Source of the DNA: Mycolicibacterium diernhoferi
GTDB lineage: Bacteria > Actinomycetota > Actinomycetes > Mycobacteriales > Mycobacteriaceae
Direction: 5' to 3'
DNA length: 64,000 bases
Assembly (NCBI RefSeq): GCF_019456655.1
Contig: NZ_CP080332.1
Location: forward strand, 5,766,001-5,830,000
Both the position numbers and the translations under genes were made by a program. The notes below the pieces were generated by a model, which saw nothing but the letters and a program-made list of their open reading frames with translations, was not told where the DNA came from and did no database searches. Each line of letters begins with the position of its first letter. The stretch's first letter is position 1. Below are positions 8,003-27,226 of the stretch, one piece after another.

Positions 8003-9387
8003 GGTCGCGGGATCTGCACCTCGACCTGGGTGAAGTCATCACCCCCGGTCTGCGCGGGGCCAGGAACACCCTGGTCGACGCCCTACGTGCGGCCATCCGG
8101 TCCGGCCGGTTGGCACCCGGGGCGATGCTGCCACCGTCCCGCGGCCTGGCTGCCGACCTGGGATTGGCCCGCAACACCGTGGCCGAGGCCTACGCCGAAC
8201 TCGTCGCCGAGGGATGGCTGGCCTCCCGGCAGGGCGCGGGCACCTGGGTGGTCAACGTCCGGACCGCCCCGCTGCCGGCCCGCCCGCGCGGGAGCCCCGG
8301 CGTCCCGCCGCACAATCTGATGCCCGGTTCCCCGGACGTCTCGCAGTTCCCTCGCGCCGCCTGGCTGGCCTCGACCAAGCGGGCCCTGGCAAGCGCTCCC
8401 ACCGAGGCATTGCGCATGGGGGATCCGTTGGGCCGCATCGAATTACGCGAAGCGCTCACCGAGTATCTGGGCCGGGTCCGCGGAGTGCGCACCCGCCCCG
8501 ACGAGATCGTCATCTGCGCGGGCACCCGCCACGGTGTGGAGATCCTGGGCAGGGCGCTGGGCGGCCCGATCGCGGTGGAGGCCTATGGGCTGTTCCTGTT
8601 TCGGGAGGCCCTGCAGTCCGTCGGCGTGGCCACCACCCCCATCAGCGTCGACGAGGACGGTGCGGTGATCGCCGAGCTGGACGCCACCGAGGCGCGGGCG
8701 GCGTTGCTCACCCCCGCCCACCACTTCCCGCACGGTGTACCGCTGCATCCGAGCCGGCGTACCGCGGTCCTGGACTGGGCGCAGCGCACCGACGGCTACC
8801 TGCTGGAGGACGACTACGACGGCGAGTTCCGGTACGACCGCCAGCCGGTCGGCTCGGTGCAGGGCCTGGATCCCGACCGGGTCGCCTATCTCGGCTCGGC
8901 CAGCAAGAGCCTGTCACCGGTGCTGCGGCTGGGCTGGATGGTGCTGCCGGCGGCGCTGATCGACCGGGCCGTGGCCGCGCTGGGCGGTCAGCAGTACTAC
9001 GTCAACGCCCTGACCCAGCTCACCATGGCCGACTTCATCGCAAATGGCAGCTACGACAAGCATATTCGGCGCATGCGGGTGCGCTACCGGCGCCGCCGGG
9101 ATGCGCTCGTCCGGGCACTGGAACCGTTCGACGTCGGCATCCGCGGCCTGTCGGCGGGTCTGCACCTGCAGCTGACGCTGCCCGAGGGTACCGAGGCCGA
9201 GGTGTTGCGTCGCGCCGGGGAGGCCGGCATCGCGTTGTCCGGGCTGCAGATCCTGCGCCACCCCGACGCCGGCCCCGACATCCCGAGCCCCGACGGGGTG
9301 GTGGTCAGCTTCGGCACCCCGGCCGAGCACGCCTTCGGCGCGGCCGTCGACGCGCTGTGCCGCGTGCTCGAGGGCCTCAGCCGTTGA
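7960..9387 (+). CDS. MocR/GabR-type transcriptional regulator (GntR winged helix fused to aminotransferase fold)
   Basis: A 475-residue fusion. The N-terminal GntR winged helix (about residues 25-95) contains GRLAPGAMLPPSRGLAADLG followed by ARNTVAEAY. A class I aminotransferase-like domain follows. The PLP-binding lysine is in GSASKSLSP near residue 315, and EDDYDGEFRY precedes it, as in GabR and PdxR. Such proteins sense PLP-bound amines or amino acids. The annotated ATG at 7960 lies inside a cluster of repeats that looks like an operator, so the GTG at 7981 is an alternative start. The likely target is the divergent AhpD-like gene. Confidence 0.88.
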   Translation: MTWFNSAVTSWANSGSRDLHLDLGEVITPGLRGARNTLVDALRAAIRSGRLAPGAMLPPSRGLAADLGLARNTVAEAYAELVAEGWLASRQGAGTWVVNVRTAPLPARPRGSPGVPPHNLMPGSPDVSQFPRAAWLASTKRALASAPTEALRMGDPLGRIELREALTEYLGRVRGVRTRPDEIVICAGTRHGVEILGRALGGPIAVEAYGLFLFREALQSVGVATTPISVDEDGAVIAELDATEARAALLTPAHHFPHGVPLHPSRRTAVLDWAQRTDGYLLEDDYDGEFRYDRQPVGSVQGLDPDRVAYLGSASKSLSPVLRLGWMVLPAALIDRAVAALGGQQYYVNALTQLTMADFIANGSYDKHIRRMRVRYRRRRDALVRALEPFDVGIRGLSAGLHLQLTLPEGTEAEVLRRAGEAGIALSGLQILRHPDAGPDIPSPDGVVVSFGTPAEHAFGAAVDALCRVLEGLSR

Positions 9388-10000
9388 GGGTGCGCAACTC
9401 GGCCGTCAGGTTCTCCCGAGCGGCGCTCTCCCACAGCCGTTGCCCCTGCGCCGTGCGGTAGAGCGCCGGTGCGGCCAGCAACGCGGCGATGACGCGGGCC
9501 CGGCCGGCGCGGAAGTCCTCATCTGACACATGGCCGTACTCGGCACGGACTCGCTCGGTATTTCGGCGGTATTGCTCGGGAGCCACCGCCAGCTCCGCCA
9601 GATCCGCATCCGAGAGCACCTGGCCGTTGCGGTCGGCCGGACCGGGATCGTGCTCGACGGTCAGCCGGACCAGCCGGGCGACCTCGTCCACCAGCGCCGC
9701 CGGCACCTGCAGCGAGCGCAGGTCGGCTTCGGCGAGCAGCGCGCTGTTCTCCTCGTCGTCGGGAGCGCCCGCGTACACCGCGTCGTGGTACCAGGCGGCC
9801 ATCCGTACCGCGTCCGGGTCATCCGCGTGTTCGGCGAGCGCGTCGACGGCATCCAGTACGCCCTGCAGATGCGCCGTGTCGTGGTAGCGGCGGTGCGGTT
9901 CGGACCAGCGCGCCAGCATCGCGGCGCCCACGGCACCGGCATCCGGTGACGCGGTGTGGCGCGCAAGCAGCACCAGCCACTCCTGGAGCAGATCGGTCAC
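9377..10000 (-). CDS. HD-domain metal-dependent phosphohydrolase-like protein
   Basis: A 207-residue protein. RRYHDTAHLQGVL near residue 35 supplies the first histidines and AAWYHDAVY near residue 70 supplies the HD pair, the pattern of predicted HD phosphohydrolases of the YpgQ type. No signal peptide or membrane segment. The GTG at 10000 is chosen because the family begins there; the same frame is open much further upstream, but only as antisense to dprE1. It overlaps by 11 bases the 3' end of the convergent MocR-type gene. Substrate unknown. Confidence 0.75.
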   Translation of the reverse strand: MTDLLQEWLVLLARHTASPDAGAVGAAMLARWSEPHRRYHDTAHLQGVLDAVDALAEHADDPDAVRMAAWYHDAVYAGAPDDEENSALLAEADLRSLQVPAALVDEVARLVRLTVEHDPGPADRNGQVLSDADLAELAVAPEQYRRNTERVRAEYGHVSDEDFRAGRARVIAALLAAPALYRTAQGQRLWESAARENLTAELRTLNG

Positions 10001-10030
10001 GCGCCCATTCTGGCCCCGTAAGCTGCCCGC

Positions 10031-10441
10031 GTGGCCGACACCCCGGATTACGCTCCCCTGAGCCTGCGCACCCAGGCGGCGCGGTTCATCATCACCGGCG
10101 GGCTGTCGGCGGTCGTCGACTTCGGGTTGTACGTGCTGCTGCTCGCGCTCGGCCTGCACGTCAACCTCGCCAAGACGCTCAGTTTCATCGCCGGCACCAC
10201 CACGGCGTATCTGATCAACCGGCGATGGACCTTCCAGGCGCCGCCCAGCCGGGCCCGGTTCGTCGCGGTGATGGTGCTCTACGCACTCACCTACGCCGTG
10301 CAGGTCGGCATCAATTACCTGTTCTACCTGGAGTTCGCCGGGCAGCCCTGGCAGGTCCCGGTCGCCTTCGTGATCGCCCAGGGCACCGCCACGGTCATCA
10401 ACTTCGTGGTGCAGCGAGCGGTGATATTCCGGTTGAAGTGA
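10031..10441 (+). CDS. GtrA-family small membrane protein (Rv3789 orthologue)
   Basis: A 136-residue protein with four predicted helices (about residues 18-36, 45-62, 72-92 and 105-125), typical of the GtrA family. It lies directly before dprE1, as Rv3789 does in M. tuberculosis. For Rv3789 two roles have been proposed: moving decaprenyl-phospho-arabinose across the membrane, or anchoring AftA. The sequence does not settle which. The start is GTG 10031, and dprE1 follows 27 bases after the stop, consistent with one operon through the emb genes. Confidence 0.85.
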   Translation: MADTPDYAPLSLRTQAARFIITGGLSAVVDFGLYVLLLALGLHVNLAKTLSFIAGTTTAYLINRRWTFQAPPSRARFVAVMVLYALTYAVQVGINYLFYLEFAGQPWQVPVAFVIAQGTATVINFVVQRAVIFRLK

Positions 10442-10468
10442 CCGCGAACGGTACCCTTCATCACTGAT

Positions 10469-14624: not shown

Positions 14625-17600
14625 TGCCCGGACAACTAGCATCTACCTCCGTGAACGACACGCAGGCCAATCACCGCACCACCCGACTGGTCGCCGTCGT
14701 CGCCGGATTGCTCGGCACCATCCTGGCGCTGGCCACCCCGTTCCTGCCGGTCACCCAGACCACCGCGACGCTGAATTGGCCGCAGGACGGAACCCTGGAC
14801 AGCGTCGACGCACCGCTGATCGGGTATGTCGCGACCGACCTGAACATCACCATCCCGTGCAGCACCGCGGCCGGACTGACCGGCGCGCGCAGTGTGCTGC
14901 TGTCCACGGTGCCCAAGCAGGCCCCCAAGGCGGTCGATCGTGGACTGCTCATCGAACGGGTCAACAACGAACTACTGGTCATCGTGCGCAACACCCCGGT
15001 GGTCAGCGCGCCCCTGAACGAGGTGCTCAGCCCGGCCTGCCAGGAGCTGGTGTTCACCGCGCACGCCGACAAGGTGACCGCTGAATTCGTCGGTCTGACC
15101 CAGGGTCCCGACGATCAGGACCCCGGTGAGCCGCTGCGCGGCGAGCGCGGGGGCTATGACTTCCGCCCGCAGATCGTGGGAGTGTTCACCGATCTGGCCG
15201 GGCCCGCCCCGCCGGGCCTGCAGTTCTCCGCCACCATCGACACCCGCTACAGCAGCTCGCCCACGTGGGTCAAGACCGTGGTGATGGTGCTGGGCCTGCT
15301 GATGACGATCGCGTCGCTGATCGCGCTGCACCGCCTCGACATCGCCGACGGCATGCGGCACCGGCGCTTCCTGCCGCAGCGCTGGTGGTCGATCACCAAA
15401 CTCGACGCGCTGGTCGCCACGCTGTTGGTGTGGTGGCATTTCGTCGGCGCCAACACCGCCGACGACGGCTACATCCTGACCATGGCCCGGGTATCCGATC
15501 ACGCCGGTTACATGGCCAACTACTACCGCTGGTTCGGCACGCCGGAGGCCCCGTTCGGCTGGTACTACGACCTGCTCGGGCTGTGGGCCCAGGTGTCCAC
15601 CGCGAGCATCTGGGTGCGGCTGCCCACTCTGCTGATGGGTCTGGCCTGCTGGTGGATCATCAGCCGCGAGGTCATCCCCCGCCTCGGCGCCGCAGTCAAG
15701 AAGAGCCGCCCGGCGGCGTGGACCGCGGCCGCGATGTTCCTGGCGTTCTGGCTGCCGCTGAACAACGGACTGCGCCCCGAACCGATCATCGCCGTCGGCA
15801 TCCTGCTGACCTGGTGCTCGGTCGAGCGCGGCGTGGCGACCAGCCGGCTGCTGCCGGTGGCGGTGGCCATCATCATCGGTGCGCTGACCCTGTTCTCCGG
15901 GCCCACCGGTATCGCCGCCGTGGGCGCACTGCTGGTGGCGATCGGACCGCTGAGAACGATTGTGGCCGCACATGTCTCGCGGTTCGGCTATATGGCCCTA
16001 CTGGCGCCGATCGCGGCGGCCGGCACGGTCACCATCTTCCTGATCTTCCGGGACCAGACCCTGGTCAGCGAACTGCAGGCCAGCTCGTTCAAGTCCACCA
16101 TCGGCCCCAGCCTGGCCTGGTTCGACGAACACATCCGCTACTCCCGGCTGTTCACCACCAGCCCGGACGGTTCGGTGGCCCGGCGCTTCGCGGTGTTGAC
16201 CCTGCTGTTGGCACTGGCCATCTCGATCGCGATGACGTTGCGCAAGGGACGCATTCCCGGCACCGCCATCGGGCCCACCCAGCGGATGATCGGGATCACC
16301 GTCATCTCCTTCCTGTCGCTGATGTTCACCCCCACCAAGTGGACCCACCACTTCGGGGTGTTCGCCGGCCTGGCCGGCTCCATCGGCGCGCTGGCCGCCG
16401 TGGCGATCACCGCGGCGGCAATGAGTTCCAAGCGCAACCGCACGATCGTGACCGGTGCCATCCTGTTCATGACGGCGCTGTCCTTCGCAACCGTGAACGG
16501 CTGGTGGTACGTCTCGAACTTCGGCGTCCCGTGGTCGAACGACTTCCCGCGCCTGTCCATCGGTTTCACCACCATCCTGCTCGGGCTGGCGGCGCTGGCG
16601 CTGCTGGTCGCGACCTGGCTGCACTTCTCCGGTCGTGCATCCGGGAACCGGCCGTGGACGCGGTTCACCTCTGCCCCGCTGGCCGTCGTCACGTGGGCGG
16701 TGGTGCTGTTCCAGGTGATCTCGCTGACGATGGCGGTCGTGGGGCAGCACCCGGCGTGGACCGTGGGCCGATCCAATCTGGATGCGTTGCGCGGCAAGAC
16801 CTGTGGTCTGGCCACCGATGTGATGGTCGAACAGGACCCCAACGTCGGCATGCTCACCCCGATCGATGCACCGGTGTCCGAGGCGCTGGGCGCGGTCACC
16901 GCGGACAACTTCACGCCCAACGGCATTCCCGACGACATCGAGGCCGACCCGGTGATGGAACAGCCCGGGGACAGCAACTTCGCCGATTCCGCGAACAGCG
17001 ATGAGACGGGCAGCGAACCGGGCACCGAAGGCGGCGTCACCGCGGCGGCCGGGGTGAACGGTTCGGTGGCCCGACTGCCCTACAACCTGGACCCCACCCG
17101 TACCCCGGTACTCGGCAGCTGGCGGTCCGGCCCGCAGGCGCCCGCCAACCTGCGTTCGGCCTGGTACCGGCTGCCTCCGAGCGACGAACGCGGTCCGCTG
17201 CTGGTGGTCGCCGCGGCCGGTCGCTTCGACCCGGGCGAGGTCGTGGTGCAGTGGGCCACCGAGGAGCAGGCCGAGAGCGGAAAGCCCGGCGGCACCATCG
17301 GTTTCGCGGACGTCGGCGCCGTACCCGCATGGCGCAACCTGCGCGCCCCGATGGCCGCCATCCCCGCCGAGGCCACCCGGGTACGCCTGGTCGCCTCCGA
17401 CGACGACCTCGCACCACAGCACTGGATCGCGGTCACCCCGCCGCGCATCCCGGAGCTGCGCACCCTGCAGGAGGTCGTCGGGTCCACCGATCCGGTGATG
17501 CTGGACTGGCTGGTCGGCCTGGCGTTCCCGTGCCAGCGGCCGTTCTTCCACAACAACGGCGTGACCGAGGTGCCCAAGTGGCGCATCCTGCCGGATCGCT

Positions 17601-17839
17601 TCGGCGCCGAGGCCAACTCGCCGGTGATGGACTACCTGGGCGGCGGGCCGCTCGGCATCACCGAGCTGCTGTTGCGCGCCGTCCCGGTGCCCACCTACCT
17701 GAAGGACGACTGGTTCCGCGACTGGGGGTCGCTGCAGCAGCTGCGGCAGTTCTACCCCAACGCGAAGACCGCCGAACTCGAGCTCGGCACCGCCACCCGC
17801 AGCGGGCTGTGGAGCCCGGCACCACTACGTCCGAGCTAG
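14624..17839 (+). CDS. embC: Arabinosyltransferase EmbC
   Basis: A 1071-residue GT-C arabinofuranosyltransferase, the member of the Emb trio that extends the arabinan of lipoarabinomannan. The first helix is followed by a periplasmic jelly-roll domain, then multiple helices. The catalytic loop has ADDGYILTMARV with Asp280/Asp281. A C-terminal carbohydrate-binding region follows from about residue 720. ATG 14624 (TGATG overlap with aftA) is preferred to GTG 14651 because LASTSVNDTQANHR at the start aligns with the M. tuberculosis N-terminus. It is separated from embA by an inserted gene pair, unlike the contiguous embCAB of M. tuberculosis. Confidence 0.95.
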   Translation: MPGQLASTSVNDTQANHRTTRLVAVVAGLLGTILALATPFLPVTQTTATLNWPQDGTLDSVDAPLIGYVATDLNITIPCSTAAGLTGARSVLLSTVPKQAPKAVDRGLLIERVNNELLVIVRNTPVVSAPLNEVLSPACQELVFTAHADKVTAEFVGLTQGPDDQDPGEPLRGERGGYDFRPQIVGVFTDLAGPAPPGLQFSATIDTRYSSSPTWVKTVVMVLGLLMTIASLIALHRLDIADGMRHRRFLPQRWWSITKLDALVATLLVWWHFVGANTADDGYILTMARVSDHAGYMANYYRWFGTPEAPFGWYYDLLGLWAQVSTASIWVRLPTLLMGLACWWIISREVIPRLGAAVKKSRPAAWTAAAMFLAFWLPLNNGLRPEPIIAVGILLTWCSVERGVATSRLLPVAVAIIIGALTLFSGPTGIAAVGALLVAIGPLRTIVAAHVSRFGYMALLAPIAAAGTVTIFLIFRDQTLVSELQASSFKSTIGPSLAWFDEHIRYSRLFTTSPDGSVARRFAVLTLLLALAISIAMTLRKGRIPGTAIGPTQRMIGITVISFLSLMFTPTKWTHHFGVFAGLAGSIGALAAVAITAAAMSSKRNRTIVTGAILFMTALSFATVNGWWYVSNFGVPWSNDFPRLSIGFTTILLGLAALALLVATWLHFSGRASGNRPWTRFTSAPLAVVTWAVVLFQVISLTMAVVGQHPAWTVGRSNLDALRGKTCGLATDVMVEQDPNVGMLTPIDAPVSEALGAVTADNFTPNGIPDDIEADPVMEQPGDSNFADSANSDETGSEPGTEGGVTAAAGVNGSVARLPYNLDPTRTPVLGSWRSGPQAPANLRSAWYRLPPSDERGPLLVVAAAGRFDPGEVVVQWATEEQAESGKPGGTIGFADVGAVPAWRNLRAPMAAIPAEATRVRLVASDDDLAPQHWIAVTPPRIPELRTLQEVVGSTDPVMLDWLVGLAFPCQRPFFHNNGVTEVPKWRILPDRFGAEANSPVMDYLGGGPLGITELLLRAVPVPTYLKDDWFRDWGSLQQLRQFYPNAKTAELELGTATRSGLWSPAPLRPS

Positions 17840-17850
17840 CGGAGCCGGTC

Positions 17851-19467
17851 TCAGCGCCGGCCCGCCAGGATCGCTTCGATATTGCGTTCCGCCAGCGCGG
17901 TGATCGTCATGAACGGGTTACAGCCGATGTAACCGGGAATGAGCGAGGCGTCGTTGACGTACAGGTTCTGGTGGCCGTGCACGCGCCCGAACAGGTCGGT
18001 GGCCTGCCCCCGGACACACCCGCCGAGTGGGTGAACGGTGTTGGGCGCGAACGCCTTTCCCTCGAACAGGTCGTCGCGGTAGTCCACTCCGTTGGCCTGG
18101 GTCACCCGGTCGAACACCAGCTTCGCCCGTTCCACGAGGTGATCGGTGTGACTCTGCGGCCAGTCGATACTGATCGAGTCGGACTGCCGGTCATAGCCGA
18201 TCACCGCCCGGTCACCGGTGCGCACCATGGCGTAGTAGCCCAGCGCGTGCGTCTCGACCGGCAGCGGCATGGAGAACATGCTGGCGTACACCGGGTTGTC
18301 CGGGTCGGCCCGGCCGTCCAGGTTGATCATGCCCAGCAGTGACTGCTGGGTGCCCGCCGGATCCTGCGCGGACAGCATGTGCGACACCATGATGTCGCCG
18401 TTGTTGCCGTACCCGTTGCCGAGTTCGTCGTGCAGGTTGGGCAGGTCGCCGGTCTCCCGGGCACGCAGCAGAAGCTGGGCGGTGCCCAATACGCCGGCGG
18501 CCAGATACAGTTGCTCACAACCGATTTCGTCGCGCGCGACCTCGGTCCCCCACCGGTCGATCTCCCGGGTGGACACCACGTACTCACCGGAGGGTTCCTG
18601 ACGGATACCGGTCACCTCGGTGAGCGGCCGCAGGGTTACGTGCCCGGTCTGCAGCGCCTCGGCGACGTAGGTCTGGTCCACGCTGCCGAACCGGCCGTGG
18701 TTGTTGCCGTACTGCTGTTCCCAGTCCAGCGCCGAGAGCGGCACCTCACCTGCCGCCTCGCGCATCATGTAGTCGAACGAGTAGGCGCTGCCGTTGTAGT
18801 CCACCCCGTAGCCGGCCGCGGCGGCGTACTTGCGCCCCACCCGCGCGTACTGGAAATACGGGGTCTGCTCGAACCAGTTCATATCGCGGTAGCTGATCCG
18901 CAGCGCGGTCTTGGCCCGCTCGACGTAGGTGCCCAGGAATTCCGCCGGGTCGATGTCGGGGAACGCCGCGTGCACCTGTTCGGGGGTGGGCACCGCCGCG
19001 ATGGCGGCATTGACCATCGAGCCTCCGCCGACGGCGATCCCGCGGAACACGTCGTGGGCGCCGTAGGTGACCTTGTCGCAGATCCCGGCCTGCACCGGCT
19101 GGGGCGACGGATTCTGCTCGGCCACCGCGTTCACCGATATACCCATGAAGGAGGGCACCAGGCTCGGTGGCACCTCCTTGAACCAGCCCGCCCGGGTATC
19201 GGCCGGCAACATCTTCGAGAACCGCTTGCCGTCCTCGTCCGGGGTGTCCCACAGCCGGCCGCGCTCCAGGATCAGCGTGTCCACCCCGGCCTGGCCCAGG
19301 CGCAACGCGCTTACTCCCCCGCCGTACCCGCTGCCCACCACGATGGCCCGGTGGAACGGGCGTGATGGGGGCCGGTCGGAGGGTGCGGACTGGCATGCCG
19401 CGGTCACCCCGGCGGTGCCTGTGACGAGGCCGGTCGCAGCAACCAGGAACCGCCGTCTCGTCAGCAT
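17851..19467 (-). CDS. Secreted GMC-family flavin oxidase, cholesterol-oxidase-like
   Basis: A 538-residue protein from ATG 19467 (another ATG at 19476). The N-terminus TRRRFLVAATG is a twin-arginine signal, and TAACQS around residue 25 is a candidate lipobox, so a folded FAD-loaded protein is probably exported and possibly lipid-anchored. The FAD fold starts IVVGSGYGGG near residue 45 with GGGSMVNA about 110 residues later. The active site has the histidine of HPLGGC near residue 480 and the asparagine of GCNPFMT near residue 520, as in class I cholesterol oxidases. Substrate is likely a sterol or other bulky alcohol, by family only. It converges on embC with 11 bases between stops. Confidence 0.88.
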   Translation of the reverse strand: MLTRRRFLVAATGLVTGTAGVTAACQSAPSDRPPSRPFHRAIVVGSGYGGGVSALRLGQAGVDTLILERGRLWDTPDEDGKRFSKMLPADTRAGWFKEVPPSLVPSFMGISVNAVAEQNPSPQPVQAGICDKVTYGAHDVFRGIAVGGGSMVNAAIAAVPTPEQVHAAFPDIDPAEFLGTYVERAKTALRISYRDMNWFEQTPYFQYARVGRKYAAAAGYGVDYNGSAYSFDYMMREAAGEVPLSALDWEQQYGNNHGRFGSVDQTYVAEALQTGHVTLRPLTEVTGIRQEPSGEYVVSTREIDRWGTEVARDEIGCEQLYLAAGVLGTAQLLLRARETGDLPNLHDELGNGYGNNGDIMVSHMLSAQDPAGTQQSLLGMINLDGRADPDNPVYASMFSMPLPVETHALGYYAMVRTGDRAVIGYDRQSDSISIDWPQSHTDHLVERAKLVFDRVTQANGVDYRDDLFEGKAFAPNTVHPLGGCVRGQATDLFGRVHGHQNLYVNDASLIPGYIGCNPFMTITALAERNIEAILAGRR

Positions 19468-19599
19468 GACCTGCAACTACACTCCACATATTTCGTAGCA
19501 AACGTCAATTTGACACGCTTCCATGTTTGCACGACAGCAATAACACGGTTAAATAGGCGTCCGTACCCAATACGACTATTAGACCGGCAAGGATACGAA
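19468..19599. promoter_or_regulatory. Divergent promoter region between the GMC oxidase and alkB-like genes
   Basis: This 132-base stretch is strikingly AT-rich compared with the surrounding DNA and must hold the promoters of both inserted genes. GTCAA-T-TTGAC at 19504-19514 is an exact inverted repeat and a possible regulator site. No regulator gene lies next to it. Confidence 0.45.
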
Positions 19600-20784
19600 G
19601 TGGCAGACCCCCAGTCCGGCAGATCGCCCAGAAAGCTGGGTGCGAAGCGGTATCTGTGGTTGCTCAGCGCGGTTGTGCCCGGTTTGATCGTATTGGCATG
19701 GATCTTGGTCCAATTGACCGGACTGTCGGTGTTCTGGTGGACCGGCCCGATCATGGCGTTCATCCTAGTTCCCCTCGTGGACCAGATTGTCGATCTGCGA
19801 GCGGATATGTCCGGATTCGATTCGCCACATCCGCTCGAGGACGACAAGTTTTACCGCTGTGTCACCTACCTATATCTGCCGGGCCAGTATCTTTCATTGA
19901 TCTTTGTTTGCTGGTTGTGGAGCGGCGGCGGTTGGCTGACGATGAGCACCGTCGACAAAGTCGGGTTGATGGCCACCACCGGCATCGTCGGCGGCATCGC
20001 CATCAACGCCGCGCACGAATTGGGCCACCGGCGCGCAAGGGCTGAGAAACGTCTCAGCAAGATTGCGCTTGCGCAAACTGGATATGGACATTTTTTCGTC
20101 GAGCACAACCAGGGCCACCACCTGCGGGTGGCAACGGCCGAGGATCCAGCCAGCGCACGCCTCGGCGAGAGCGTCTACCGATTCATCCCGCGGTCGGTGC
20201 TCGGCGGGCTGCGTTCGGCCTGGCAACTGGAGACCGCGCGGCTGGCCCGGGCCGGCAAGCCGTGGTGGTCGCCGGCCAACGACATCCTCAACGCCTGGCT
20301 GCTGACCGCAACCCTGTTCGCGGGACTGGTCGCCTGGTTCGGCCCCGTCGTCATCCCGTGGCTGCTCGGGCAGGCCGTCATCGGCGTCTGCCTGCTGGAG
20401 ACGGTGAACTACCTGGAGCATTACGGTCTGCGCCGCCAGCGCCTCGACGACGGGGTCTACGAGCCCGTCGGGCAGCGGCACAGCTGGAACAGCGACACCC
20501 TGATCGCCAATGTGTTCCTCTACCACCTGCAGCGACACTCCGACCACCATGCGAACCCGCACAAGCCGTACCAGACCCTGCAGCACTGCGACCAGGCCCC
20601 ACAGCTGCCCGCCGGCTACGGCAACATGCTGGTGCTGGCGTGGTGCCCGCCGTTGTGGCGCCGGGTGATGGATCCCCGGGTGTTGGCCCATTACGGCGGC
20701 GACATCCGGCTGGCCGCGCTCAAACCGACCGACGTGCCACGCGGGTCGTCCGATGATGCCGGGGGTCGCGTCGCTTACCCTTGA
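19600..20784 (+). CDS. alkB: AlkB-type membrane alkane/fatty-acyl hydroxylase
   Basis: A 394-residue membrane diiron monooxygenase. All the histidine boxes of the family are present: [19 protein letters not shown] with [15 protein letters not shown] and [11 protein letters not shown]. About six helices surround them. GTG 19600 is chosen because AAGGA lies 6 bases upstream and the segment before it is unlike the family. It hydroxylates terminal methyl groups of alkanes or related chains using electrons from rubredoxin; no rubredoxin gene is adjacent, unlike many alkB loci. The stop overlaps the region of the embA start, so the two genes may share a transcript. The first third uses many A/T-ending codons, unlike its neighbours. 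Confidence 0.88.
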
Positions 20785-20789
20785 GCCTC

Positions 20790-23700
20790 GTGCCCGATAG
20801 GACAGTCCGCCTCGTCGCCATCATCACTGGTCTTGTCGGCTTCCTGCTCTGCGTGCTCGTCCCGCTGTTGCCGGTCAAGCAGTCGACCGCCGCGATCCAA
20901 TGGCCGCAATCCGCCGACGCCGACGGCTTCGCCGAGGATGTCACCGCTCCGCTGGTCTCCGGGGCGCCCAAGTCGCTGAATGTGACCATCCCGTGCCAGG
21001 CCGTCGCCAGCCTGCCCGCCGAGGGCGGGCTGGTGTTCTCCACGATCCCGCCGGGCGGCATCGACGCCGGCCGCAACGGTCTGTTCGTCAACGCCAACGC
21101 CGATGTCGTGTACGTCGCGTTCCGGGACACCGTGGCGACGGTCGCGCCGCGCGAGGCGGTGGACCGCGGTGACTGCGGTGAGCTGCGGATCTGGGCGGAT
21201 GTGCGCACGGTCGGCGCCGAGTTCGTCGGCATCTCCGAGGCGCCCGGCACGCTGAGCGTGGACAAGCGTCCCCAGGTGGCCGGTCTGTTCACCGAGCTGC
21301 GGGTGGCCCCCGATGCCGGGCTGTCCGCGCACATCGACATCGACACCCGGTTCATCACCACCCCGACCACGCTGAAGACGGCCGTCATGGTGCTCGGGGT
21401 CGCCGCGGTGCTGGCATCCATCGTGGCGCTGGCGGTGCTGGACCGAAGCGCCGGGCGCCGCGCGCCCCCGGCGCCGCGCCGCCGCAGCCTGACGGTGTGG
21501 CTGGCCGACGCCGGTGTCATCGGTGCCCTGCTGATCTGGCACATCGTCGGGCCGCCGACGTCGGACGACGGCTACAACCTGACGATGGCGCGCGTCTCGG
21601 GCGAGGCCGGCTACATCACCAACTACTTCCGGTACTTCGGCGCCTCGGAGGCCCCGTTCGACTGGTATCAGAGCGTGCTCGCCCAGCTGGCCTCGATCAG
21701 CACCGCCGGGGTCTGGATGCGGCTGCCCGCCACCGCGGCCGCGATCGGTACCTGGCTGCTGATCAGCCGCTTCGTACTGCCGCGACTGGGCCGCAGACTG
21801 GTCCGCAACCGGGCCGCGGTGTGGACCGCCGGGGCCGTGTTCCTGGCCGCCTGGCTGCCCTTCAACACCGGCCTGCGACCGGAGCCGCTGATCGCCTTCG
21901 GCGTGGTGCTGATCTGGGTGCTGGTGGAGATCACGGTGGGTACCCGCCGGCTGTGGCCGACCGCGGCCGCCGTCGTCGTCGCCGCCTTCTCCGTGACCCT
22001 GGCCCCGCAGGGTCTGATCGCGCTGGCGCCACTGCTGGTCGGCGCCCGGGCCATCACCCGGCTGATCGCCGAACGCCGCGCCGTCCAGGGCGTGCTGGCG
22101 CCGCTGGCCGCGCTGCTGGCCGCCGCCTCGCTGATCTTCGTGATCGTGTTCCGGGACCAGACCCTGGCCACCGTCGCCGAGTCGGCCCGGATCAAGTACG
22201 TGGTGGGCCCGACCATCCCCTGGTACCAGGAGTTCCTGCGGTACTACTTCCTGACCGTCGAGGACAGCGTGGACGGATCGCTGACCCGCCGGTTCGCGGT
22301 CCTGATCCTGCTGCTGTGTCTGTTCGGGCTGCTGATGGTGCTGTTGCGCCGCGGCACCGTGCCGGGGGCGATGAACGGACCGGTGTGGCGGCTGATCGGC
22401 AGCACCGGGATCGGGCTGCTGCTGCTGACCCTGACCCCGACCAAGTGGGCGATCCAGTTCGGCGCGTTCGCCGGTCTGGCCGGCGCGCTGGGCGGGGTGA
22501 CCGCGTTCGCCCTGGCCCGGGTCGGCCTGCACAGCCGACGCAACCTCGCCCTCTACGTGACGGCCCTGCTGTTCGTGCTGGCCTGGGCGACCTCGGGCAT
22601 CAACGGCTGGTTCTACACCGGCAACTACGGGGTGCCGTGGTTCGACAAGCAACCCGTCATCGTCGGCTACCCGGTGACCACCATCTTCCTGGTGCTGGCC
22701 ATCGCCGGTGGCCTGCTGACCGCGTGGCTGCACTTCCGCATCGACTACGCCGGGCACACCCAGGTCGCCGACACCGGTCGCAACCGGGCACTGGCATCCA
22801 CGCCGCTGCTGGTGGTCGCCGTGATCATGGTGGTGCTCGAACTCGGCTCGATGGTCAAGGCCACCGTGGGCCGCTACCCGGTCTACACCACCGGCTCGGC
22901 CAGCCTGTCGGCGTTACGGTCGGGTCTGTCCGGAGACAGTTGCGCGATGGCCGACGCCGTTCTGGTCGAGGCCGACACCAATGCCGGCCTGCTGCAACCC
23001 GTTCCGGGGCAGCGATTCGGCCCGTACGGTCCGCTGGGCGGCGAGAAGCCGATCGGCTTCACCCCCAACGGTGTCAGTGACACCCTCGAACCCCCCGAGC
23101 CCGTGGCCGGCAATCCGGGCACGCCGAACTCCGACGGGCCGGTCGACAAGCCCAACGTCGGTGTCGGCTATGCGGCCGGTACCGGCGGTGGCTACGGCCC
23201 CGAAGGCGTGAACGGATCCCGGGTGTTCCTGCCGTTCGGACTGGATCCGGAGCGCACCCCGGTGATGGGCAGCTTCGACGAGAACACCCTCGCCGCCAAG
23301 GCCACCTCGGCCTGGTACCAACTGCCGCCCCGCACCCCGGACCGGCCGCTGGTGACCGTCGCCGCGGCGGGCGCCATCTGGTTCTACGAGGAGGACGGGT
23401 CGTTCAACTACGGCCAGTCGCTGAAACTTCAGTGGGGTGTGCACCGCCCCGACGGCAGCTACCAGGCACTGTCGGAGGTCCAGCCGATCGACACGTTCTA
23501 TCAGAAGGCGTGGCGCAACCTGCGGTTCCCGCTGACCTCGGCCCCGCCGGAGGCCAATGTGGCCCGCATCGTCGCTGATGACCCGAACCTGTCCGAGGAC
23601 CAGTGGTTCGCGTTCACCCCGCCGCGGGTGCCGGTGCTGCAGACCGCACAGGAATTTCTCGGCACCCAGACCCCGGTGCTGATGGACATCGCGACGGCGG

Positions 23701-24032
23701 CGAACTTCCCGTGCCAGCGGCCGTTCGCCGAGCGGCTCGGGGTGGCCGAGCTGCCCGAGTACCGGATCCTGCCGAACTTCAAACAGATGGTGGCCTCGTC
23801 GAACCAGTGGCAGTCCGCCGACGACGGCGGACCGTTCCTGTTCATCCAGGCGCTGTTGCGCACCGCCACGATCCCCACCTACCTGCGGGATGACTGGTAC
23901 CGCGACTGGGGTTCCATCGAGCGCTACATCCGGGTGGTGCCGAGCGACGAGGCGCCCGACGCCGTCATCGAGGAAGGGACGACCAACGTGTTCGGCTGGA
24001 GTCGCGGCGGACCGATCAGGGCCCTGCCGTGA
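20790..24032 (+). CDS. embA: Arabinosyltransferase EmbA
   Basis: A 1080-residue GT-C protein of the Emb family, partner of EmbB in building the terminal arabinan of arabinogalactan. The catalytic-loop aspartates are at about residues 259-260 ([12 protein letters not shown]), then membrane helices and a large C-terminal carbohydrate-binding region ending GPIRALP, as in M. tuberculosis EmbA. GTG 20790 is preferred; a TTG at 20781 overlaps the alkB stop. The embB GTG at 24029 overlaps its stop. Because alkB ends only 5 bases before, expression may depend on read-through from the inserted gene or on an internal promoter. Confidence 0.95.
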
Positions 24033-27000
24033 ACGACGTGAAGATCGCCCGCTGGGTCGCCACCATCGCCGGCCTCCTGGGCTTCCTGATGGCGGTGGCT
24101 GTGCCGTTGCTGCCGGTCACCCAGACCACCGCCACGTTGAATTGGCCTCAGGGCGGCCAGCTCTCGAACGTGACCGCGCCGCTGATCTCGCAGGCGCCGG
24201 TGAGCCTGACCGCCACCGTGCCGTGCTCGGTGATCCGCGATATGCCCGCCGACGGCGGGCTGGTGATGGGCACCGCGCCGGCACAGGGCCGCGACGCCGC
24301 GCTGAACGCGATGCTGGTGACGGTCAGCCCGGAGGCGGCGGATGAGCCGGCTCGGGTCGATGTCATCGTCCGAAATGTGGTGGTGGCCAGCGTCGAACGT
24401 GACAAGGTCACCGGTACGGCGGCGGCCCCCGGGTGTTCGGAGATCCGGATCACCTCCGACCATGACGGCACCTACGCCGACTTCGTCGGGTTGACCAAGG
24501 ACGACGGCTCCGCCCAGCGGACCGGCTACCCGGACCCGAACCTGCGCCCGGCGATCGTGGGCGTGTTCACCGACCTGACCGGTGCTGCACCGCAAGGGTT
24601 GTCACTGTCGGCCGATATCGACACCCGGTTCACCACGCACCCGACCGTACTGAAGCTCATCGCGATCGTGCTGGCCATCATCTCGACCGTCATCGCGGTG
24701 CTGGCGCTGTGGCGCCTCGACCGTCTGGACGGCCGTCGGATGCGCCGCCTGATCCCCACCCGGTGGCGGACCCTGACCGCCGTCGACGGTGTCGTGGTGG
24801 GCGGCTTCGCGATCTGGTACGTCATCGGCACCAACTCGTCTGACGACGGCTATATCCTGCAGATGGCCCGCGTCGCCGAGCACGCCGGCTACATGTCGAA
24901 CTACTTCCGCTGGTTCGGCAGCCCGGAGGATCCGTTCGGCTGGTACTACAACGTGCTCGCGCTGATGTCCCAGGTGAGCACCGCGAGCATCTGGATGCGG
25001 TTGCCCGACCTGATCTGCGCGGTGATCTGCTGGCTGCTGCTGTCCCGCGAGGTGCTGCCCCGACTGGGGCCCGCGGTGGTCGCCAGCCGTCCGGCGCTGT
25101 GGGCGGCCGGTCTGGTGCTGCTGGGCGCCTGGATGCCGTTCAACAACGGCCTGCGCCCCGAGGGCCAGATCGCCACCGGCGCACTGATCACCTACGTGCT
25201 CATCGAGCGGGCCATCAGCTCGGGCCGGCTGACACCCGCTGCGCTGGCGATCATCTCGGCGGCCTTCACCCTCGGGATCCAGCCCACCGGCCTGATCGCG
25301 GTGGCCGCCCTGGTGGCCGGCGGCCGGCCCATCCTGCGCATCCTGATGCGCAGGCGCGCGCTGGTCGGCACGCTGCCACTGCTGGCTCCGCTGCTCGCGG
25401 CGGGCACCGTGATCCTGGCGGTGGTGTTCGCGGATCAGACGCTGGCGACGGTGCTGGAGGCCACCCGGGTGCGCACCGCGATCGGGCCCAGCCAGGAGTG
25501 GTACACCGAGAACCTGCGCTACTACTACCTGATCCTGCCCACCGTGGACGGTGCGATCTCGCGTCGCTTCGCCTTCCTGTTCACCGCGATGTGCATGTTC
25601 CCGGCGCTGTTCATGATGTTGCGCCGCAAGCGGATCGCCGGGATCGCCCGCGGACCGGCCTGGCGGCTGATGGGCATCATCTTCGCCACCATCTTCTTCC
25701 TGATGTTCACCCCCACCAAGTGGATCCACCACTTCGGCCTGTTCGCCGCGGTGGCGGGCGCGATGGCCGCACTGACCACGGTGATGGTGTCCCGGACGGT
25801 GCTGCGTTCGGCACGCAACCGGGTGGCCTTCCTGGCGCTGGTGTTCTTCGTGCTGGCGCTGTGCTTCGCCTCGGTCAACGGGTGGTGGTACGTCTCCAAC
25901 TTCGGTGCCCCGTTCAATACCGCGGTGCCCGCCATCGGTGGGGTGTCCGTCAGCTCGATGTTCTTCGCGCTGTTCGCGATCACCGCACTGTGGGCGTTCT
26001 GGCTACACGTGTCCGGCAAGACCGAATCGCGGCTGGCCGACCGGCTCACCGCCGCGCCGATCCCGATCGCCGCCGGGTTCATGGTGGTGGTGTTCGTGGC
26101 GTCGATGGCCATCGGCGTGGTGCGCCAGTACCCGACGTACTCCAACGGCTGGGCCAATATCCGGGCCTTCGCCGGCGGCTGCGGGATGGCCGACGACGTG
26201 CTCGTCGAACCCGACTCCAATGACGGCTTCCTGCAGGCGCTGCCGGGCGACTACGGCCCGTTGGGCCCGCTGGGCGGGGCCGGCGCACCCGGCTTCAGCC
26301 CGAACGGTGTCCCGGACCGGATCATCGCCGAGGCGATCCGGCTGAACAACCCGCAACCCGGTACCGACTACGACTGGAACCGCCCGATCCGGCTGCCCCG
26401 GCCCGGGATCAACGGATCCCGGGTACCGCTGCCCTACGGGCTGGACCCCGCGCGGGTTCCGGTCGCGGGCACGTATTCCACCGAGGCACAACAGGAGAGC
26501 CGACTCACCTCGGCCTGGTACGAGCTGCCCCCGGCCGATGACGCGCATCCGCTGGTCACCATCACCGCGGCCGGCACGATCGCCGGTTCCAGTGTCGCCA
26601 AGGGCGAGACCTCCGGCCAGACAGTGGAACTGGAGTACGCGGTGGCCGGTCCGGACGGCGCCCCGGTGCCGGCGGGCCGGGTCAGTCCGTACGACGTCGG
26701 CCCGACGCCGTCCTGGCGTAACCTGCGCTACCCGCGCGAGCAGATCCCGGCCGACGCGGTCGCGGTCCGGGTGGTCGCCGAGGATCTGTCACTGGGCCAA
26801 GGCGATTGGGTCGCGGTGACACCGCCCCGGGTCCCCGAGGTCCGCTCGGTGCAGGAGTACATCGGTTCCGATCAGCCCGTGCTGCTGGACTGGGCGGTGG
26901 GCCTGGCCTTCCCCTGCCAGCAGCCGATGCTGCACGCCAACGGCGTCACCGAGATTCCGAAGTTCCGCATCTCCCCGGACTACTTCGCCAAGCTGCAGAG

Positions 27001-27226
27001 CACCGACACCTGGCAGAACGGCCTGGAGGGCGGCCTGCTCGGGATCACCGATCTGTTGCTGCGCGCCTCGGTGATGTCGACCTACCTGTCGCACGACTGG
27101 GGCCAGGACTGGGGTTCGCTGCGGCGCTTCGACACCATCGTCGACGCGCAACCGGCGGAGCTCGACCTGGGTCACACCACCCATTCCGGGCTGTACTCGC
27201 CCGGTGAGATCCGCATCGGCCCCTAG
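24029..27226 (+). CDS. embB: Arabinosyltransferase EmbB, ethambutol target
   Basis: A 1065-residue GT-C arabinosyltransferase acting with EmbA on arabinogalactan. The catalytic loop reads [12 protein letters not shown] with Asp272 and Asp273. Met279 corresponds to M. tuberculosis Met306, the main ethambutol-resistance position, and is the wild-type residue. The periplasmic domain, helices and C-terminal carbohydrate-binding module are intact. The start GTG at 24029 overlaps the embA stop (GTGA), indicating coupled translation of the heterodimer. The product is about 33 residues shorter than the 1098-residue M. tuberculosis protein, mainly at the N-terminus. Confidence 0.96.

Follow-up and report, generated by a model that had tools for sequence, protein, structure and literature searches.

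The window analysed here is a stretch of 64,000 nucleotides from Mycolicibacterium diernhoferi (NCBI RefSeq assembly GCF_019456655.1, contig NZ_CP080332.1, positions 5,766,001 to 5,830,000), in which two genes separate the cell-wall genes embC and embA. One encodes a cholesterol-oxidase-type flavoenzyme and the other an AlkB-type membrane hydroxylase. We consider it fairly probable that the two constitute a lipid-oxidation module which is mobile among mycobacterial sites and which landed in the embC-embA gap, upstream of the embA promoter. Searches of the open-access literature returned nothing on this pair or on its position at emb. The comparisons below cover 396 genomes of the genus, with G and L numbers designating genomes and loci; this set is a sample with some fragmented assemblies, and no correction for relatedness was applied to the counts.

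The insertion is bounded on the left by embC (14651..17839, + strand; PF04602 match at E 5.3e-203 and alignment, start codon uncertain) and on the right by embA (20790..24032, + strand), which is followed by embB (24029..27226, + strand; family match). The gene for the oxidase occupies 17851..19467 on the - strand (1617 bp, 538 aa), while alkB occupies 19600..20784 on the + strand (394 aa) and is assigned by homology and Pfam as an AlkB-type membrane non-haem di-iron monooxygenase. Reading frames and family matches bear out both genes as placed by a preliminary description of this DNA. The 132 bp from which they diverge (19468..19599, no strand) are AT-rich for this genome, because their GC content is 45.5% as compared to 68.6% for the window, in keeping with the common divergent promoter proposed in that description. 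Export of the oxidase by the twin-arginine translocation (Tat) pathway had also been proposed and is likewise predicted here, since the N-terminus MLTRRRFLVAATG reads as a twin-arginine signal. The distance of 5 bases between the stop codon of alkB and the most likely start of embA, a GTG at 20790, was confirmed.

Separation of embC and embA by the pair is real, since the two genes lie within 250 bp of each other in 50 of the 69 named loci that have a measurable gap and do not carry the pair. This survey took the best 80 of 493 loci, of which 75 have a measurable embC-embA gap and 6 of these contain the pair; for L082 and L094, among the five others, a looser search gave a gap. In gene order (embC-embA-embB) and in the -10 box of embA the window resembles embCAB of M. 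tuberculosis, as described in the available part of PMC2885622, but it differs in that 2.9 kb are inserted between embC and the promoter of embA.

Orthologues of the oxidase are present in 86 of the 396 genomes, at 87 places, and locus arrangement was counted at 81 of these. An alkB gene lies within the oxidase locus in 74 of the 81, which rules out chance neighbourhood and upholds the earlier suggestion that the two genes form a small unit. Divergent arrangement prevails (63 loci, 16 at emb and 47 elsewhere), with 10 alkB>oxidase tandems and a single oxidase>alkB arrangement at a distance of 2.3 kb; the called frames of one alkB>oxidase tandem overlap by 4 bases. Away from emb, 58 of 65 oxidase loci contain alkB, in two main orientations. 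Five of the remaining six oxidase places also have alkB, the exception being G219, where a contig end is near. Across the 396 genomes, 80 contain both genes, 6 the oxidase only, 34 only the alkB subtype (defined at 454 bits or more) and 276 neither (Fisher p 1.7e-48, relatedness not corrected for). Genes flanking the pair mostly differ among the seven loci examined, and no gene beyond the pair was common to these: among 16 flanking proteins scanned, only one, FMO-like, is shared, between L185 and L204.

At emb itself the pair was found in only 16 of the 396 genomes. Comparison of the embC-embA regions across the genus, together with the rpoB tree, rules out its presence there throughout the genus, the ancestral alternative raised in the preliminary description; within the stretches fetched, no emb gene lies near the other 71 oxidase places. 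Fifteen of the carriers belong to a main lineage: G000, G332 (an M. aurum isolate), G137, G203, G112 (M. frederiksbergense), G050, G404, G194, G368 (M. neoaurum ATCC 25795), G214, G302 (Mycolicibacterium sp. J2), G249, G393 (M. canariasense), G270 and G389. For G393 and G270, embC is off the fetched contig and placement rests on adjacency to embA. Thirteen of the 15 fall into one clade with G400 (support 100/99) in the rpoB tree, which has 56 rows; G270, with no rpoB hit, and G368 are absent from this tree, G434, whose rpoB place is that of G393, was omitted, and 2 of 30 named genomes gave no hit. The oxidase tree (81 rows) places the 15 main emb-located copies in one group with G400 nested (Shimodaira-Hasegawa-like approximate likelihood ratio test 98), and the AlkB tree groups the same 15 with G400 (99). 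The pair would have entered the gap in an ancestor of the lineage of M. neoaurum, M. aurum-like species and M. frederiksbergense together with its sister group. G400 is a 6% contaminated assembly whose rpoB falls among the main carriers and whose pair (L063) has no emb genes beside it and has its oxidase and alkB 1.1 kb apart.

The sixteenth carrier, G057 (L203 1-12997; assembly 89% complete, 5% contaminated), comes from a distant lineage. Along its contig, aftA, embC, the oxidase, alkB and embA, and then the beginning of embB, follow one another in the order and orientation seen in the main carriers, with about 66 bp from alkB to embA and a longer divergent region of 464 bp. In the approximately unbiased (AU) test, placing its EmbC, AftA or EmbA with those of the other carriers is rejected (p 3e-67, 5e-6 and 2e-61, respectively), and L139, whose embC-embA gap is empty (128 bp), is nearest to it by the distances of AftA and EmbC. 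As only a fragment of rpoB was found, G057 is absent from the rpoB tree. Its oxidase stands beside that of G370 (93, oxidase tree), whose pair lies elsewhere. Because the host locus of G057 belongs to a different lineage, either the pair arrived at this site on more than one occasion or it was passed between lineages, and one insertion inherited only vertically does not account for G057. Neither the oxidase data (AU p 0.19) nor the AlkB data (AU p 0.77, the constrained tree being the better one) reject a single clade uniting the pairs at emb, and independent insertion is therefore not proved. Two insertions, transfer of the pair and an older insertion with losses are each compatible with G057; in our proposal, G057 would have gained the pair through an insertion of its own or through transfer.

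The oxidase carries the GMC domains PF22500 and PF05199 and matches the Streptomyces cholesterol oxidase 1b4v over nearly its full length (E 1.7e-130, residues 40-534), with a further match to 1coy (E 5.3e-113). Its N-terminal flavin adenine dinucleotide motif aligns with that of cholesterol oxidase (vvgsgygggv stretch). It scores below the NCBIfam equivalog cut-off for CholsOxChoxAB (89.9 bits as compared to 850). Relative to the class I Streptomyces enzyme, His447 and Asn485 are kept, as His479 and Asn517, in 81 of 81 oxidase rows, but the HMMER alignment places Ser396 where the Streptomyces enzyme has Glu361, and most mycobacterial orthologues differ further in having an AlkB neighbour. The Glu361 position was taken as the single aligned site with E in the wild-type chain and Q in the chain of 1b8s, which we take to be the Glu361 mutant. 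At this position the 81 main-set rows have serine (72) or threonine (9), and eight further mycobacterial copies have threonine, serine or, once, glycine, so that the catalytic glutamate is found in 0 of the 89 mycobacterial oxidases examined. In contrast, it is present in 25 of the 25 non-mycobacterial homologues read, a set without the weaker homologues; no AlkB was found in the fetched loci of these 25 (mostly 1.5 kb of flank on each side). Going by the title of the study, the E361Q change reportedly suppresses isomerisation and not oxidation. Glu361 is described as the catalytic base of cholesterol oxidase in the available part of PMC5722936.

A characterised enzyme may be the closest guide to the activity of the window oxidase. 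According to the available part of PMC7532642, ChoM2 of M. neoaurum HGMS2 is encoded by a 1617-bp gene and oxidises beta-sitosterol at 68.4 U/mg, being more active on this sterol than a Streptomyces control enzyme, and formation of hydrogen peroxide from beta-sitosterol is reported. The M. neoaurum orthologue of the window oxidase is 538 aa long and 83% identical, and in M. neoaurum ATCC 25795 it is the sole full-length match in the genome, located between embC and embA. Judged by gene length and by this sole full-length match, the window oxidase is probably the orthologue of ChoM2, although the available part of PMC7532642 contains no word beginning with 'emb'. If ChoM2 is indeed the emb-located gene, the simplest reading would be an oxidase whose isomerase function has been altered or lost, because ChoM2 would then still oxidise beta-sitosterol despite the loss of Glu361. 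An industrially used sterol oxidase would in that case gain a regular AlkB partner, and it would be predicted to be without the canonical catalytic and isomerase glutamate.

AlkB matches the solved alkane 1-monooxygenases 8f6t (E 1.8e-110) and 8sbb (E 1.5e-95) over nearly its full length. Its histidine boxes align with those of solved AlkB, and the box histidines are retained in 70 to 74 of 74 orthologues. No NCBIfam family matched it, even at E 10. It differs from the solved enzymes in having no fused rubredoxin and in having a cholesterol-oxidase-type enzyme as its partner. No rubredoxin gene was seen between embC and embA, and the two tandem rubredoxin genes of the genome both adjoin the other alkB, which is 49% identical (L300 4632-6162; G000:C1 at about 1.6746-1.6762 Mb). 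The emb-located alkB of L061 (G214; 9283-10463) matches in two overlapping frames, apparently because of a frameshift or a sequencing error, and the oxidase and emb genes of the same locus match over their full length.

It seems plausible to propose that the module consists of a Tat-exported cholesterol-oxidase-type flavoenzyme and a membrane AlkB hydroxylase, which are paired at various genomic places. The exported oxidase would act on the sterol 3-beta-hydroxyl outside the membrane with release of hydrogen peroxide, while AlkB would hydroxylate a terminal methyl, either on that lipid or on another occurring with it, receiving its electrons from rubredoxins encoded elsewhere in the genome. 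The substrate of AlkB and the joint pathway are suggested by homology and pairing.

Several points weigh against such a module. The active sites of the two enzymes would face opposite sides of the membrane, as the catalytic face of AlkB is on the side opposite to that of a Tat-exported enzyme. Seven of the 81 oxidase loci are without alkB (in three of them a contig end lies about 0.5 kb or less from the oxidase start), and the 34 genomes with the alkB subtype only have it without the oxidase. A complete KstR-type motif, TnnAACnnGTTnnA, was found in 0 of 62 oxidase-alkB intergenic regions. The probable identity with ChoM2 is drawn from gene length and genome content. Finally, two lineages carry the pair at this site with matching orientation, and the main lineage conserves a promoter-like element ahead of alkB; these observations make a functional link to embAB possible.

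A more far-reaching form of the proposal, which we put forward tentatively, is a two-ended module. Here the glutamate would have been lost upon partnering with AlkB, and the two enzymes would oxidise the ring hydroxyl and the terminal side-chain methyl of a sterol, as an alternative to the P450 route. Such a module would relocate as a unit and would have been drawn more than once to the same spot and orientation in front of the embA promoter.

It is also conceivable, but in our view unlikely, that the oxidase has ceased to act on sterols and instead oxidises the alcohols made by AlkB, as in a two-step alkane route. AlkJ of Pseudomonas is a GMC enzyme, and the AlkB/AlkJ pathway thus offers the same combination of an AlkB hydroxylase and a GMC oxidoreductase. 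This would explain why the two genes are constantly paired and why Glu361 was lost, and the distribution of the glutamate (0/89 mycobacterial orthologues against 25/25 homologues with no AlkB in the fetched locus) fits it, as do the ten alkB>oxidase tandems with one overlap of frames. However, the window enzyme is of the cholesterol-oxidase type and is predicted to be exported, which would place it across the membrane from the catalytic face of AlkB. Moreover, ChoM2, if it is the same gene, outperforms the Streptomyces control on beta-sitosterol (PMC7532642, available part), and we prefer the reading of a sterol-directed lipid-oxidation module.

The promoter of embA bears directly on how this module sits in the emb locus. 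In M. tuberculosis, according to the available part of PMC2885622, the embA promoter lies directly upstream of embA, works irrespective of embC and with unchanging activity during growth and stress, and lost its reporter activity when the TACCAT box was altered. The corresponding -10 box of the window, TACCCT (20776..20781, + strand), is located inside alkB just before its stop codon, 8 nt before the embA GTG, from which the embA mRNA would be leaderless. A -10 box with exact spacing is present in 16 of 16 carriers (the 15 main carriers and G057), and no fewer than 80 of the 81 regions from non-carriers have the box too. A loose pattern (TA-N3-T, 8 bases, start codon) is matched by 81/81 non-carrier and 15/15 carrier regions, with 1.7 of 96 expected by shuffling, and a strict pattern by 76/81 and 15/15 (91/96), with 0.02 expected. 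The box is visible by eye in four of the five strict misses; the fifth, L047, whose embA is cut by the contig start, is doubtful and has a loose match only. These pattern counts leave out L073 (same genome as L056), L203 and low-scoring or late-starting embA hits. Since the box is in place in the carriers, the insertion lies upstream of the embA promoter. Most likely embAB are still transcribed from their own promoter, and the suggestion in the preliminary description that their expression is tied to the alkB promoter is not borne out. The emb position is therefore tolerated and not shown to be regulatory; read-through from alkB into embA is possible.

Two elements were found in the divergent region. 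An inverted element, GCAAA-N23-TTTGC, is present at 19498..19530 (no strand), and a promoter-like element upstream of alkB, TTTGCA-N17-TTAAAT, at 19526..19554 (+ strand) by consensus only. The pattern GCAAA-N20-28-TTTGC occurs in 15 of 15 main-lineage emb pairs as compared to 1 of 46 divergent pairs elsewhere, and TTTGC-N15-19-TTAAAT in 13 of 15 as compared to 0 of 46; both are absent in G057. A scan for consensus promoters and terminators returned nothing. A KstR operator in the divergent promoter was considered and rejected; the short form AACnnGTT occurs in 7 of the 62 regions and not in the window genome. Sterol control of the divergent promoter of the window may be envisaged; transcription of choM2 increases with phytosterol in M. 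neoaurum NRRL B-3805 (PMC10834601, available part).

Such induction, together with the lineage-specific element upstream of alkB, would suit an alkB-embA-embB operon in which sterols or alkanes raise arabinan synthesis. Genes alkB and embA are co-directional, the distance from one to the other being 5-89 bp in the main carriers (15) and about 66 bp in G057, and the same pair stands in the same orientation at emb in two lineages. We nevertheless hold this coupling to be improbable. The native -10 box is kept in every carrier, and in M. tuberculosis its counterpart supports a steady level of embA expression that does not depend on embC (PMC2885622, available part). Unrelated cargoes occupy the same gap in other species, G057 does not have the element found ahead of alkB, and a simple scan detected no sigma-70 consensus promoter.

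The gene trees show the emb locus to be mosaic. In the trees of AftA and EmbC the two main carrier groups form one clade (99 each), in agreement with rpoB and the oxidase, whereas EmbA and EmbB reject that clade (AU p 4.2e-8 and 6.4e-7), so that embAB must have been exchanged in at least one carrier group. The rows for these tests were hand-picked (9 of the 14 carriers with EmbC, and 24 others); in a larger EmbC tree, group 2 is not one side of a branch, as L076 and L077, whose gap is unreadable, fall inside it. The conflict between the two sets of genes places a change of ancestry somewhere near the alkB-embA junction, with embAB swapped between lineages.

The embC-embA gap is an insertion hotspot, exceeding 250 bp in 19 of the 69 named non-carriers. 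According to Pfam its cargoes include EmbR-like BTAD-FHA regulators (L135, L141 and L147), a GlfT2-like glycosyltransferase (L103), a PPE protein (L132), a protein kinase, an isoamylase-like gene (L142) and an AraC-type gene, and an MmpL-like gene was named by eye. The scan covered 18 proteins, a minority of the contents, and 6 of them match no family or only one below the cut-off. That the oxidase and alkB are unrelated genes co-travelling as neutral cargo of this insertion-prone site, where large gaps are frequent and the contents examined are unrelated to the pair, is very improbable and largely refuted by the persistence of alkB in the 58 of 65 oxidase loci away from emb. The gap thus appears as a hotspot beside cell-wall genes which keeps the embA -10 box through insertions, and where embAB were exchanged between lineages. 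No repeats pairing the two insertion edges were seen, and transposase genes were not searched for. Large-gap loci were seen among L035-L043 and L093-L147. In some carriers a further gene separates embC from the oxidase gene, namely a DUF7159 gene in L056 (5932-7757) and a short-chain dehydrogenase in L053 (6166-7650).

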